Source of the DNA: a virus
IMG/VR virus record: IMGVR_UViG_3300029309_000183
Coordinates: 1 to 32,141 of that record
Length of the DNA: 32,141 nucleotides
Direction: 5' to 3' (one strand)
Positions within the stretch are counted from its first letter, which is position 1; every line of letters begins with the position of its first letter. This document shows positions 21,180-25,018 of the stretch, piece after piece. Under the pieces are notes generated by a model. It searched no databases, was not told where the DNA came from, and saw only the letters and a list, made by a program, of their open reading frames with translations. The position numbers and the translations under genes were made by a program.

Positions 21180-21455
21180 TTATAATTCTTTTAACTCTTG
21201 TAATTTACTAATTTTTATTTTAAGTTCAACTATATCTTTAGTCTGTACTGCGTTATCTAAACGCAACTTTCTAACTTCTTTTAATAAGTTTCTGTTGTAA
21301 TCAGCTAACTCGTGAATAGTCTCCATTGTCGTTTTAAGCGTCTCTAACGCATCTAATCTATTTTTAGATGGTTTACCCTTATCACAGTCGTGCATTGCTT
21401 TTATAATTAAAATATGTAATTTATTTTTTCTTAGTAACAATTCTAACTCATCCAT
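21180..21455 (-). CDS. Coiled-coil hypothetical protein (91 aa)
   Basis: 91 residues, nearly all helix, with heptad-like patterns (LEALETLKTTMETIHELADY type content, then LLKEVRKLRLDNAVQTKDIV). It overlaps the helicase gene upstream by eight bases, so it is translated with it. It could be a helicase-loading or replisome accessory protein, as its position after the helicase suggests, but no known loader motif (such as an AAA+ site) is present and its size is too small. Confidence 0.55.
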   Translation of the reverse strand: MDELELLLRKNKLHILIIKAMHDCDKGKPSKNRLDALETLKTTMETIHELADYNRNLLKEVRKLRLDNAVQTKDIVELKIKISKLQELKEL

Positions 21456-22317
21456 AATTCTCTGTGTTTTTAAGTGGATTAACTCCTCCGATTGTGAAGC
21501 CTAAGCCGTTATTATAATTAAATCTTAAAGGCTCGTTTAACATTGTAGGCTTTCCTCCTGATTCTCGGTCTTTAATTTTTAAAATGTGTATTTCTGTCAT
21601 AGGCCACAAGTCAGGATGTGAAATGAGGCGGTGACATACAAATAGACTATCGACTCTATTAGGAAACACCTGGCCGCCTTCACAGTCAGCCTTACGAGGA
21701 TTTTGTATGTGACCGTTAAGTAAATGGTCTGGAGGATAAACTCTTCGAGCCGCTTCAGTTTGAGGATGTATGCTAACAAATAAAGTCTTTTTTGTTTTAT
21801 TACAAAACTCTCTAGCACTATTGCAAAAATTGTAGTTTCTGTCAAATTGATTAACTCTTCTATCGTGATTCAATCCTGTATAAGGGTCGATAGCGCAGAC
21901 ATCAGCGTCAGACTTTGCAAAGATGTTAAAGAGTTCAATATGACTGTAAAGTTTTCTATTGTCTATAAACTTAAAATATTGACTTATTTCTTTATTGTAT
22001 TTTAATATCTCAAACTTATTTAAGTCTTTTAATTTTGTGCCTGTCCACATTTCAATGATGTCTCTTTTTAATTGTGAGGACTTATTTTCACCAGACCAAA
22101 TAATGAATTTTAATTTATGTATTTTAGCAAGTGTTGTAAAATACCAAAGCAACCAAAACGTCTTCCCTACATTATCAAGGCCTAAACAAAGATTAAACTC
22201 TCCTCTTTTTAAAACTAAGTTCTCATCCAGTTTACAACCTATCTTAAGACCTTGCTTAATTTTACCGTCTTTGTAGTCATATAAATATTTAAGTGCGCTG
22301 TCGTCTTCTACTATCAT
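21448..22317 (-). CDS. RecA-fold replicative helicase-like ATPase
   Basis: 289 residues. Walker A is GLDNVGKT (46-53), and a Walker B strand SDADVCAIDPYTGL ends in Asp144. A later strand TLFVSIHPQTEAARR and GGQVFPNRVDSLFVCHR match the H4 and arginine-finger regions of DnaB/Twinkle-type or KaiC-like ATPases. It lacks an N-terminal primase or DnaB N-domain, so it is a short ring ATPase. It starts at an ATGA overlap with the initiator-like gene, the same initiator-helicase pairing as in many phages. Recombinase (RecA/UvsX-like) function is an alternative but less likely given the neighbours. Confidence 0.7.
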   Translation of the reverse strand: MIVEDDSALKYLYDYKDGKIKQGLKIGCKLDENLVLKRGEFNLCLGLDNVGKTFWLLWYFTTLAKIHKLKFIIWSGENKSSQLKRDIIEMWTGTKLKDLNKFEILKYNKEISQYFKFIDNRKLYSHIELFNIFAKSDADVCAIDPYTGLNHDRRVNQFDRNYNFCNSAREFCNKTKKTLFVSIHPQTEAARRVYPPDHLLNGHIQNPRKADCEGGQVFPNRVDSLFVCHRLISHPDLWPMTEIHILKIKDRESGGKPTMLNEPLRFNYNNGLGFTIGGVNPLKNTENYG

Positions 22318-22730
22318 TTTGTTAAAAGTTTTTTAACCTCATCAGATACTTTTAAGACGTTATCATTTTCATATTTATCTTTTATGTTCTTTTCTTTTCT
22401 TAATGCTTTAGCATTGCTTAAGCTATGCTTTCCGCCTTTTCTTCCTGACTCAACTCTTTTATTGTGTGCTTCTTTACGTTCTTTGTATTGTTTATCTAGC
22501 CAGTCAATAATAATATTTTTATTTTTTTGTTTAACTATTCCAACTTTTATTAGACTTTCATAATCGTCTGGAATTATTCTTTTGTATTGTTCAAATGGAA
22601 CTTTACACTCTTTGCTCCAATAATAGCAGACTACTTTCATAAAAGAGCCTTGTTGTTTTAGGCTTAAGAAACTTATTGTTCCCGTTAGCCATTGATTTGG
22701 GTTGAATTTAAACCAAGGTAAATCTGTCAT
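22314..22730 (-). CDS. DUF1376-like replication initiator / replisome organiser
   Basis: 138 residues from the ATG at 22730 (MTDLPWFKFNPNQWLTGTIS); a start at 22766 would add a poor leader. The pattern of a Phe/Trp-rich start, LSLKQQGSFMKVVCYYWSKE and a winged-helix-like VPFEQYKRIIPDDYESLIKV matches the DUF1376 group of phage replication proteins. A basic linker follows (KERKEAHNKRVESGRKGGKH). The linker DNA (22398-22433) holds iteron-like repeats, as the lambda O gene carries its own origin. It precedes the helicase gene with a four-base overlap. The most likely job is opening the origin and recruiting the helicase. Confidence 0.6.
   Translation of the reverse strand: MTDLPWFKFNPNQWLTGTISFLSLKQQGSFMKVVCYYWSKECKVPFEQYKRIIPDDYESLIKVGIVKQKNKNIIIDWLDKQYKERKEAHNKRVESGRKGGKHSLSNAKALRKEKNIKDKYENDNVLKVSDEVKKLLTK
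22398..22433. repeat. Iteron-like repeats inside the initiator-like gene (candidate replication origin)
   Basis: On the plus strand three 10-base units follow each other: TGCTTTAGCA (22404-22413), TTGCTTAAGC (22414-22423) and TATGCTTTCC (22424-22433), preceded by a T-rich polypyrimidine stretch from about 22381. Bases 22398-22423 match 16855-16880, in the gap after terL, at 24 of 26 positions. Location within the linker of a replication initiator gene is the lambda plan. Confidence 0.6.
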
Positions 22731-22756
22731 TGTTCTTTGTTTTAGTTTGTTTATAA

Positions 22757-23224
22757 TTAGAAACATTTTAACTGCTCATATGCTGAAATTTTAAGTTTAG
22801 TTAAATCGTGTTTTTCAGGTTTAAAAAAATCTACTAGAAATTTGTCATTTGTTATATTATACTCATTTTCAATAAAGTCTTTAGGCTCTTTGCCGTATTT
22901 ATTATTTTTTATTTCTTGAATATAAGAAATTCCATTAATTGTTTTAGCGTTTAAAAAATTATCGTCAATTTTAATTTCGCTTTTAACAATAAAACATTTT
23001 ATAATTGAATTATCATTTAATTTTATATTGCTTAAGTTACTTAATTGTTTATATAAGTTTATACTACATTTATCATTTTTATTTTTATGATCAATTATAA
23101 AAGTATATTTTGTATTATATTTTGTAATTAAAGTATCAATATCCATTATAGTTCTTAATCTGTCTGAATTTATACTTAATAAAAAATTTAATTTATTGTT
23201 ATGATATTTTTCATTATATTTCAT
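22757..23224 (-). CDS. Unrecognised AT-rich gene next to the ABC-GNAT fusion (155 aa)
   Basis: 155 residues from the ATG at 23224 (MKYNEKYHNNKLNFLLSINS). Starting at 23281 would overlap the upstream gene by 40 bases, so the later start is preferred. The predicted fold is mixed alpha/beta (RTIMDIDTLITKYNTKYTFI, IIKCFIVKSEIKIDD) with no known catalytic motif. The codons are markedly richer in A and T (Asn, Ile, Lys) than those of neighbouring genes, as is partly true of the ABC-GNAT gene, which suggests the two arrived together. It could be a partner of the ABC-GNAT protein. I do not know its family. Confidence 0.6.
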   Translation of the reverse strand: MKYNEKYHNNKLNFLLSINSDRLRTIMDIDTLITKYNTKYTFIIDHKNKNDKCSINLYKQLSNLSNIKLNDNSIIKCFIVKSEIKIDDNFLNAKTINGISYIQEIKNNKYGKEPKDFIENEYNITNDKFLVDFFKPEKHDLTKLKISAYEQLKCF

Positions 23225-23241: not shown

Positions 23242-24441
23242 TTAAAATAATCTTGTTTGATTTTGTGCTACATTTTTCCAAGCATCAGCATTAAATGTAA
23301 TAATGTGAATTTCATCTTCAAATTGTTTACCAATATATTTGTAAGATTTTGTAACACTTTCTTTTATAGTTTTTATACCTGTTTGAAATTTAATTATTCC
23401 TTCTTTAGCTTTTTTTAAAATATTTTTATTTGATTTTTTAATTTGTTCTACATTATTTGTTTCTCCACTTAAAATCCAGTATTTGGTATTTCTACTCATA
23501 CCAATAAAAAGTGACGGATTACTTGTTTTAATATAAAGAGTTTGTTTGTTTTTTTTATACATTGAACCAAATATATTTAATATTTTAATTCCTATTCCTA
23601 AACCTTGAAAATCAGGCAAAACAACAAGTCTTGAGACTCTATAAGCGTTTTTTATTGTTCCACTAGGCATTGGTAAAATAGCAATAAAACCAACAGGCTT
23701 TTCATTCCATATTAATATAAAACATTTAGCCGATTTGTTTAAATCTTCTGTTAAATAATGATGTTGTTTGAATATATTCCAAGTTTCATATCTACATCGA
23801 AATATCTGTAATTTAATTTCTGGTCTTGATTGCCGAAGTAAGGAGGGCTTTTCAACCCTCCCTTTTAACGGTGAGTAAGTCCAATCTGGTAACAACCATT
23901 CCATTATGTCAAAATGACAACTTGCTAATATTATTTTTTTATTGTTTCTTCTTATATATTTTTGTAAAGCGTTACTCATAGCTTTTGCAACGTCTCTATC
24001 AACAACAGAAGTATATTCGTCAATTAGTATAGTTTCGTTTTCTTTTGCGTTTCCTACTTTGTAGGCTAATTCTGCTCTGTATTGTTCACCATTTGACAAT
24101 GTATGAAAAGGTCTTAACCAAGTTGGAACAGAACTTAAACCCATTGAACTTAACAACATTGTTGCTTCGTTAGGTTCTAACCAATTAAAATTGCTTATTA
24201 AAGGTTTTTTATTACTAAAAACACATTTACTTAAATTTCCAAATTCTTTTAATAATGTAGTCTTTCCTGTTCCAGAACCTCCATAAATAACACCAATATT
24301 CCATTTAAATGTTTTACATTCAGAAAAATTTATTGGAATGTTTACAGATGTTTCTTCATTGTTTTGTATGTCAAAAGATTCATAAATGTAATTTGTATAT
24401 TTATCGTTAATTATTTTACTTGATTTTTTTATATATTTCAT
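23242..24441 (-). CDS. ABC-type ATPase fused to a GNAT acetyltransferase domain (COG2401-like)
   Basis: 399 residues. The N-terminal soluble ABC ATPase has Walker A GGSGTGKT (54-61), signature LSNGEQ (115-120), Walker B ILIDEYTS (138-145, Asp141/Glu142) and a switch His176; no membrane segments occur. Residues about 215-330 are a GNAT domain with HHYL (227-230), KPVGFIAILPMPSG and the acyl-CoA-binding RLVVLPDFQGLGIG (271-284). The combination matches COG2401. The HHYL...VVLP-QG-GIG subtype recalls phage Mom-like GNAT proteins, some of which modify DNA bases (Mu Mom), so DNA or nucleotide modification against host restriction is a reasonable hypothesis. The last 70 residues are Lys-rich and unassigned. 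It overlaps the upstream gene by one base. Confidence 0.85.
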   Translation of the reverse strand: MKYIKKSSKIINDKYTNYIYESFDIQNNEETSVNIPINFSECKTFKWNIGVIYGGSGTGKTTLLKEFGNLSKCVFSNKKPLISNFNWLEPNEATMLLSSMGLSSVPTWLRPFHTLSNGEQYRAELAYKVGNAKENETILIDEYTSVVDRDVAKAMSNALQKYIRRNNKKIILASCHFDIMEWLLPDWTYSPLKGRVEKPSLLRQSRPEIKLQIFRCRYETWNIFKQHHYLTEDLNKSAKCFILIWNEKPVGFIAILPMPSGTIKNAYRVSRLVVLPDFQGLGIGIKILNIFGSMYKKNKQTLYIKTSNPSLFIGMSRNTKYWILSGETNNVEQIKKSNKNILKKAKEGIIKFQTGIKTIKESVTKSYKYIGKQFEDEIHIITFNADAWKNVAQNQTRLF

Positions 24442-24722
24442 TAGTTATTTTTTTTTAAATTATTAACGTAAAAGTCTTTTTCTTCTTTGCTTATGTCTTC
24501 CCATTTGTAAACAGGAGTGGAACCGTAGTCCCACTCGTTATTATAATAAGCCTCTCTTTTGTAGTTTGGTATTGGTTTTACTGGTACAGGCTTATAAAGT
24601 TGACATAAATAAATAGAATCAAGTTCCCATTGTTCTGCTAATTCTGGTATTGTATAACCCTCAATTAACAATTCTTGTATAAGACTCGAAAACCATTCCG
24701 AACTTCTTTTTATTGAACTCAT
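24441..24722 (-). CDS. Hypothetical protein with helix-turn-helix-like start (93 aa)
   Basis: 93 residues. EGYTIPELAEQWELDSIYLC near residues 21-40 has the look of a helix-turn-helix (the x-TIxELAExxxLx pattern). The remainder is Pro/Tyr-rich (KPVPVKPIPNYKREAYYNNE) and ends with a charged helix. Its stop shares a base with the ATG of the ABC-GNAT gene (TAATG), so the two are translationally coupled. It might target that protein to DNA or regulate it; this is inference from position. Confidence 0.55.
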   Translation of the reverse strand: MSSIKRSSEWFSSLIQELLIEGYTIPELAEQWELDSIYLCQLYKPVPVKPIPNYKREAYYNNEWDYGSTPVYKWEDISKEEKDFYVNNLKKNN

Positions 24723-24739: not shown

Positions 24740-25018
24740 TTAAAAGGGTAAATCGTTAGACGACTCCCAGGAGTCTGACTCTTGCTTTACAGGCTGTGCT
24801 TGACTTTCTGTATCAGGCTTCCAAGTATCAACAGAAACAGCAACGTTTTTTCCGTATTGGTCTGCTTCGTCTTTTACGTTTATGTTTAATTTAATAAATT
24901 TATTTCCATTATACTCTTGAATGTAATCTTTAATTTTAGACGGGTTAATTGTTACTTTTAACCATTTTTCGTTCATTGTCTTACCGCTTCCACAGTAGAT
25001 TGTTTTTTCTTTTTCCAT
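24740..25018 (-). CDS. Single-stranded DNA-binding-like protein
   Basis: 92 residues. An OB-fold-like beta pattern (EKWLKVTINPSKIKDYIQEY, FIKLNINVKDEADQYGKNVA, VSVDTWKPD) is followed by a flexible Gln/Ser/Glu-rich linker and an acidic C-terminal tip SSNDLPF. That tip mimics the DDDIPF tail through which bacterial SSB recruits partner proteins. It is shorter than cellular SSB but comparable to phage versions. It lies between the exonuclease and the replication genes, as expected of a recombination/replication cofactor. Confidence 0.65.
   Translation of the reverse strand: MEKEKTIYCGSGKTMNEKWLKVTINPSKIKDYIQEYNGNKFIKLNINVKDEADQYGKNVAVSVDTWKPDTESQAQPVKQESDSWESSNDLPF

Follow-up and report, generated by a model that had tools for sequence, protein, structure and literature searches.

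To our knowledge, Mom of phage Mu is the sole characterised DNA modifier among GNAT proteins; this protein, a methylcarbamoylase, is PDB entry 8bv8, and its gene lies near the right end of the Mu genome. Base acylation of DNA had reportedly been predicted already in 2013, by Iyer et al., for phage proteins in which an ABC ATPase is joined to a GNAT domain. In the passages of Iyer et al. 2021 that deal with phage ABC-GNAT proteins, these are predicted to acylate DNA bases (PMC7824862). For this architecture, section 3.4.7 of the same paper names Tenacibaculum phage pT24 and cites for it QAX98348.1, which in the records is a protein of Aeromonas phage AsFcp_2. A literature search on COG2401 and ABC-GNAT biochemistry found no experimental papers on any member and, among the papers searched, no mention of COG2401. 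Here, we looked at an ABC-GNAT gene within a viral stretch of 32,141 nucleotides (the window) and compared its sequence and its genomic position with those of its relatives.

The gene is an open reading frame of the minus strand that starts with ATG and contains zero internal stops, the plus strand across the same interval being stop-rich. The features of the encoded protein are the following.

23242..24441, minus strand: ABC ATPase-GNAT fusion gene, 399 aa (open reading frame, Pfam, PHROG and alignment)
24259..24282, minus strand: Walker A, GGSGTGKT, residues 54-61 (its G, S, G, G and K invariant in 19 divergent relatives)
24082..24099, minus strand: ABC signature, LSNGEQ, residues 115-120 (L115, S116 and G118 invariant)
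24016..24030, minus strand: Walker B and catalytic glutamate, ILIDE, residues 138-142 (D141 and E142 invariant)
23914..23916, minus strand: H176, candidate H-switch of the ABC ATPase (invariant)
23815..23874, minus strand: linker between ABC and GNAT, residues ~190-209 (in frame in the window gene)
23752..23763, minus strand: HHYL, residues 227-230, in the N-terminal helices of the GNAT domain (Y229 invariant)
23590..23607, minus strand: QGLGIG, residues 279-284, acyl-CoA pyrophosphate-binding loop (G280 invariant, G282 and G284 near-invariant)

The first-pass annotation had described an ABC ATPase joined to a GNAT domain in one gene, with both motif sets intact in a single frame. Domains and motifs bear this out, and all five motifs stand at the residues that it gave. 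Since the signature follows only ~54 residues past Walker A, the ABC domain is a compact one. In the alignment of the 19 divergent members, the invariant positions included G54, S56, G57, G59, K60, L115, S116, G118, D141, E142, D148, H176, Y229, R271, P276 and G280. These positions comprise the residues with which a functional ABC ATPase performs catalysis, together with the loop by which a GNAT holds CoA, and from their conservation both ATP hydrolysis and acyl-CoA binding are predicted. Pfam GNAT models matched residues 216-300 (E 2.7e-6 to 9.8e-6), the Pfam P-loop matches were weak, and phrog_11143, a full-length phage family of unassigned function, matched the window protein with E=4.2e-137.

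Relatives of the window protein were found by tblastn in 61 phage records and, in addition, in 181 stretches of viral contigs. The phage records ranged from Nonlabens phage P12024S (63% identity) and Tenacibaculum phage pT24 (56% identity over 83% of the query) to phages of Gordonia, Leptospira, Porphyromonas and Streptococcus. Gene 24 of P12024S (AFM54685.1) is a full-length orthologue annotated as hypothetical, archaeal ATPase and GNAT, and QAX98348.1 is 33% identical to the window protein over 99%. With a soluble ABC domain and a GNAT domain both intact, homology to the published exemplars and a genomic link with DNA modification (see below), the window gene by its sequence belongs to the predicted ABC-GNAT DNA-modification family of PMC7824862, of which it has the same architecture. 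The core idea of the first-pass annotation was therefore an existing published prediction. The published statement is a prediction, and the passages of PMC7824862 on this family are silent on the slot exchanges, GNAT module exchange, frameshift and formyltransferase linkage that we describe. Two relatives call for a remark. The pT24 gene (L003, ~6760) contains an in-frame TGA within its GNAT part, reading V*INVISP, for which an error in sequencing, recoding or loss of an intact gene may account. L108, a contig that binning had assigned to a Woesearchaeota archaeon MAG, carries an ABC-GNAT gene (67%) beside phage-like genes, one of them large-terminase-like, and is probably a mis-binned phage.

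The whole-chain fold model showed two domains with moderate quality (pLDDT 73.8, pTM 0.45). When it was searched with Foldseek, one part matched canonical GNATs and the other ABC nucleotide-binding domains. The Pfam and Foldseek matches thus place the protein in the GNAT fold that it shares with Mom, and a relationship to Mom had been put forward at first reading. This relationship did not hold. Profile-profile comparison of 19 ABC-GNAT with 7 Mom sequences (hhalign) gave a probability of 0.5% and left the GNAT region unmatched, Mom (8bv8) was absent among the 50 best Foldseek matches, and the best GNAT matches were ordinary ones such as 1y9k, RimI and Naa60. Moreover, the QGxGxG motif of the classical CoA loop is kept in ABC-GNAT and missing from the Mom alignment, and Mom lacks an ABC domain. 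Both are GNAT-fold proteins of phages linked to DNA modification, although their sequence relationship is undetectable. As ABC-GNAT is not a Mom homologue by sequence, it is genomic position that backs a Mom-like mode of action. Aeromonas phage AsFcp_2 (L120, L133) was found to carry an ABC-GNAT gene together with a Mom-like gene in one genome, so the two need not be mutually exclusive.

The position of the gene was studied within the phage group of the window. Its neighbours are listed here.

24740..25018, minus strand: 92-aa replication-module gene on the upstream side (weak match to SSB, phrog_378, E=0.024)
24441..24722, minus strand: 93-aa HTH-like gene, the last conserved gene ahead of the slot, overlapping the ABC-GNAT start (TAATG)
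22757..23224, minus strand: small protein of 155 aa whose sequence pattern resembles PD-(D/E)XK/VRR-NUC, MDID ... FIIDHK (174 aa if read from TTG)
22314..22766, minus strand: 150-aa replication-module gene on the downstream side (weak match to a primosomal protein)
21448..22317, minus strand: DnaB/primase-helicase-like gene, 289 aa, the anchor of synteny

Syntenic relatives were fetched via the DnaB-like gene (21448-22317) irrespective of the presence of ABC-GNAT. As the slot we took the interval bounded by the 92/93-aa genes and by the 150-aa/DnaB genes, and we inspected it in the 58 loci with sufficient upstream sequence; in L157 and L158, its upstream border was unrecognised. About half of the 58 loci had just one small gene in the slot. 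An insert of more than 1 kb was present in 27 of them, and 26 of these 27 carried modification or modification-linked genes; counted as distinct inserts at 95% identity, the figure was 21 of 22. Here, Pfam was run on representatives, and the other loci were assigned by similarity to these or by reading the sequence. The window phage and L147 had ABC-GNAT there. Elsewhere we found ParB/N6-N4 DNA methyltransferases (Pfam E=2e-10), MT-A70 (4e-23), an N6-N4 methyltransferase with a helicase-like gene (9e-25), the 7-deazaguanine enzymes QueC (2e-76) and PTPS/QueD (8e-17) with QueE-like genes, a thymidylate-synthase-fold enzyme (2e-61), TAGT TET-associated glycosyltransferases (2e-31 and 3e-39), a Tet_JBP dioxygenase (5e-23) with a glycosyltransferase, and a PAPS-reductase/DUF3440 (2e-31) with ParB. 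The sole large insert with no recognised modification gene was that of L162. For the DUF3440 PAPS reductase, FkbM and thymidylate-synthase-fold genes, a service in DNA modification is what we infer. Throughout L139-L217, the place upstream of the DnaB-like gene is a hot spot that exchanges very different modification cassettes, usually with a small nuclease-like gene after them. The PAPS-reductase-DUF3440 and ParB-domain genes (L160:2872-4080, L201, L152) form an IbrA/IbrB-like pair in this DNA-modification slot, which hints at a DNA modification, sulfur-containing or of a related kind, as the product of DUF3440 PAPS-reductase proteins.

The same kind of exchange was observed in two unrelated phage groups. 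At the right end of Mu-like phages of P. gingivalis, five carried ABC-GNAT and four carried Mom as alternatives at one slot. In the pairs compared, the left flanks were 81-87% identical in DNA until ~130-260 bp before the cassette, and the terminal 87-91 bp were also conserved. The slot seems empty in Porphyromonas phage010a_HG1691old (L126), which apparently has neither gene. In actinobacterial phages, the slot lies between a ParB-like gene 1 and the terminase. Gordonia phage NHagos and others have ABC-GNAT there; Sour, Quesadilla and Laurie have sets of TGT/QueC/QueD/QueE/FolE genes; MakoManhole has an aGPT-PPlase2 set, and LittleMunchkin is arranged alike. Thus, in Gordonia and mycobacterial phages, ABC-GNAT replaces 7-deazaguanine and thymine-hypermodification cassettes. 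For Rosebush, which shares its genus with Laurie, dPreQ0 was detected in the DNA by LC-MS/MS (PMC6884629). ABC-GNAT is also immediately preceded by a ParB_N gene in phages of Leptospira, Lactococcus, Pasteurella and Arthrobacter. The 7-deazaguanine, TET/JBP-TAGT and thymine-hypermodification cassettes hence share slots with ABC-GNAT in related phages, although their chemistry and enzymes are unrelated to it. This positional evidence from three unrelated phage groups is new. The three independent exchanges with known DNA-modification genes support the view, proposed at first reading, of a phage DNA-modifying counter-defence enzyme within an inserted segment. On this basis, we consider it quite probable that ABC-GNAT is a phage DNA-modification enzyme. 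A slot position is circumstantial, and such slots could take other anti-defence genes.

A rival role would be the acylation of a protein, for instance a defence protein or the RNA polymerase of the host, in the manner of the phiKMV-type GNAT Rac, with the ABC part as a module for recognition or assembly. The canonical GNATs that head the structural matches often acetylate proteins, and phage GNATs that acetylate RNA polymerase are described in PMC7824862. However, under protein acylation one would not expect DNA-modification cassettes as allelic replacements in three unrelated groups, nor the ParB neighbours, and we hold it to be very unlikely.

Both neighbours of the window gene had been suggested as possible partners. 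For the 93-aa gene, this proved wrong: HTH-like and part of the replication module, it also occurs in ~40 syntenic loci with no ABC-GNAT. The 155-aa gene is a frequent companion. Its family adjoins ABC-GNAT in 32 of ~79 loci and in all 24 of the 24 loci retrieved with its own profile, and from the latter count we had first read it as an exclusive partner. This reading was withdrawn after the syntenic survey, since the family also follows FkbM/TAGT genes in loci free of ABC-GNAT (L213, L214 and L216, one sequence cluster) and since loci free of modification genes have different small proteins, with nuclease-like (D/E)xK patterns, at its position. Of the suggested partnership, the frequent neighbourhood thus stands and the exclusivity does not. 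In the family, D49 and K66 (174-aa numbering) are invariant, and D64 is replaced by E in some members. Sequence searches in Pfam, PHROG and PDB gave no significant match for it (the Pfam VRR_NUC model reached E=0.0074, in three of 23 members). The model of the protein (pLDDT 84.5) had a VRR-NUC domain as its best viral fold match in BFVD (E=1.1e-3, prob 1.00), and its PDB matches were non-significant, with the PD-(D/E)XK endonucleases SfiI, HincII and DpnI among the best.

The two genes might form a phage-borne restriction-modification pair, in which the GNAT would mark phage DNA and the nuclease would attack unmarked DNA of the host or of competitors. The neighbourhood, the invariant D ... 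(D/E)xK pattern and the viral VRR-NUC match are in keeping with such a pair, and Mom-nuclease fusions are described in PMC7824862. Against it speak the loci in which the family follows FkbM/TAGT genes, the nuclease-like substitutes beside no modification gene, and the majority of ABC-GNAT relatives, which have no 155-aa gene. A putative nuclease of replication or recombination is the more economical reading of the 155-aa protein, and we regard a restriction-modification pair as unlikely.

The window gene encodes ABC and GNAT in a single frame. In ten relatives, which come from Bacteroidota, Lactococcus, Streptococcus, Oenococcus, Thomasclavelia and Enterococcus, GNAT is encoded in another frame than ABC; the offset is -1 in every case, and the shift falls within the linker between the two domains (residues ~185-210). 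Five Bacteroidota loci (L110-L114) have the sequence A_AAA_AAG in the linker, and the conserved HHY region of their GNAT frame is preceded by no start codon; on account of this slippery site and start-less frame, -1 frameshifting is the best explanation there. L138 and L137 have an A_AAA_AAG or A_AAG_GGC heptamer in the gap. L005, L123 and L136 showed homopolymer runs only, and in these three internal starts might operate. RNA folds 3' of the slippery sites showed no shared strong hairpin, so we claim no stimulator of frameshifting. Altogether, the -1 offset in ten relatives is consistent with programmed ribosomal frameshifting, for which these genes are candidates.

The GNAT part could instead belong to an acetyltransferase of small molecules (an antibiotic or a metabolite) carried as a moron and fused to ABC by accident. 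Such enzymes do exist among GNAT domains of similar size, and several annotators label ABC-GNAT relatives as transporter ATPases. Yet the co-expression of the two domains, by fusion or frameshift, persists in several bacterial phyla, both active sites being preserved, and the slot pattern indicates DNA modification specifically, which makes an accidental fusion extremely improbable.

A formyltransferase-like gene was observed directly after ABC-GNAT in Bacteroidota prophages, in P. gingivalis phages (in both of those whose annotation was read) and in one Pseudomonas phage. The genes are these.

L109:6990-7634, L110:7010-7678, L111:7021-7701, L112:6982-7650: formyltransferase-like genes
L113:7003-7671, L117:5846-6319, L121:4586-5203: formyltransferase-like genes

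Pfam Formyl_trans_N was found in L117 and L121, and the motif HPSLLP in L109, L113 and L121. This suggests a formyl group in the final modification where the two genes adjoin, and it means that the modification can require more than one step. A rival picture is that the GNAT acts before incorporation, its substrate being a free nucleotide or base precursor, or else that it takes over a base which another enzyme has modified. Besides the formyltransferase genes of the Bacteroidota, Porphyromonas and Pseudomonas relatives, the nucleotide-level pathways that use the same slots would fit this. On the other side, the slot of the window phage lacks nucleotide-pool enzymes, and next to the gene a further modification enzyme was not recognised. 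Judging from SbcC, MutS and UvrA, an ABC ATPase fits polymer DNA better than a free nucleotide. We therefore see a free or pre-modified substrate as quite unlikely, and DNA modification by ABC-GNAT on the polymer as the preferred reading.

To look at variation within the gene, we compared 34 sequences, the relatives being 63-88% identical overall to the window protein. The ABC half was conserved and the C-terminal part of the GNAT was variable. The variable part corresponds to one further feature of the window gene.

23287..23658, minus strand: exchangeable GNAT module, residues ~262-385, 22.6% GC (swapped between phages with a common rest of the gene and common flanks)

Between L031 and L009, identity was 97% for residues 20-215 and 31% for residues 262-385; for the window protein and L023, identity was 95% in ABC and 31% in GNAT. 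Over 561 pairs, which are non-independent, the two identities were uncorrelated (Spearman -0.07). The GNAT parts fell into seven types at a 60% cut, and the ABC and GNAT trees rejected each other (AU p=1.8e-38 and 1.6e-46). At the DNA level, the window and L023 were 82-97% identical through the ABC part, 13-57% at residues ~270-385 and again 88% from ~390, with sharp breakpoints within conserved synteny. The GNAT variation is a cassette exchange within the gene. The simplest reading would be that the swapped module changes the target site or the chemistry, that is, the group added, under the pressure of host defence. The exchanged part is AT-rich (22.6% GC, against 28.7% in the ABC part, 32.6% in the window and 17.9% in the 155-aa gene) and so accounts in part for the AT-rich insert in which the gene had been placed at first reading. 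The arrangement resembles HsdS of type I restriction-modification systems, in that a variable recognition or catalytic module sits on a constant platform that uses ATP. It differs from it in that homology is absent and that the exchanged part of ABC-GNAT may or may not set a DNA recognition sequence.

DNA modification by ABC-GNAT could then proceed as follows. The GNAT domain would bind acyl-CoA and move an acyl-type group onto a base of the phage's own DNA. The compact soluble ABC ATPase, probably an ATP-clamped dimer, would use ATP to engage or travel along DNA and so present the target, and the modified phage DNA would be shielded from host restriction or other DNA-sensing defences. A swap of the C-terminal GNAT module, the ABC platform staying constant, would most simply alter either the target site or the added group. 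We hold each of these chemical steps with less confidence than the role in DNA modification itself. A fuller version, which we offer as tentative, is that of an ATP-driven DNA base acyltransferase, of a kind hitherto uncharacterised, with a conserved ABC clamp and interchangeable GNAT modules setting target or group, comparable to the HsdS swaps. In several lineages, programmed -1 frameshifting would give a fixed ABC : ABC-GNAT ratio and an asymmetric dimer with a single acyltransferase arm, and in some phages the formyltransferase would extend the chemistry.

These results give strong positional support to a 2013 prediction on a widespread phage gene family, for which our literature search had found no earlier direct support. 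They also provide matched pairs on the same host for nucleoside comparison, namely the Gordonia phages Axumite and Sour and the P. gingivalis phages with Mom or ABC-GNAT. If the proposed role is true, ABC-GNAT would be a second, ATP-coupled GNAT route to modified phage DNA, unrelated to Mom in sequence and equipped with exchangeable modules; both the DNA modification and, as a tool, the enzyme may be new.
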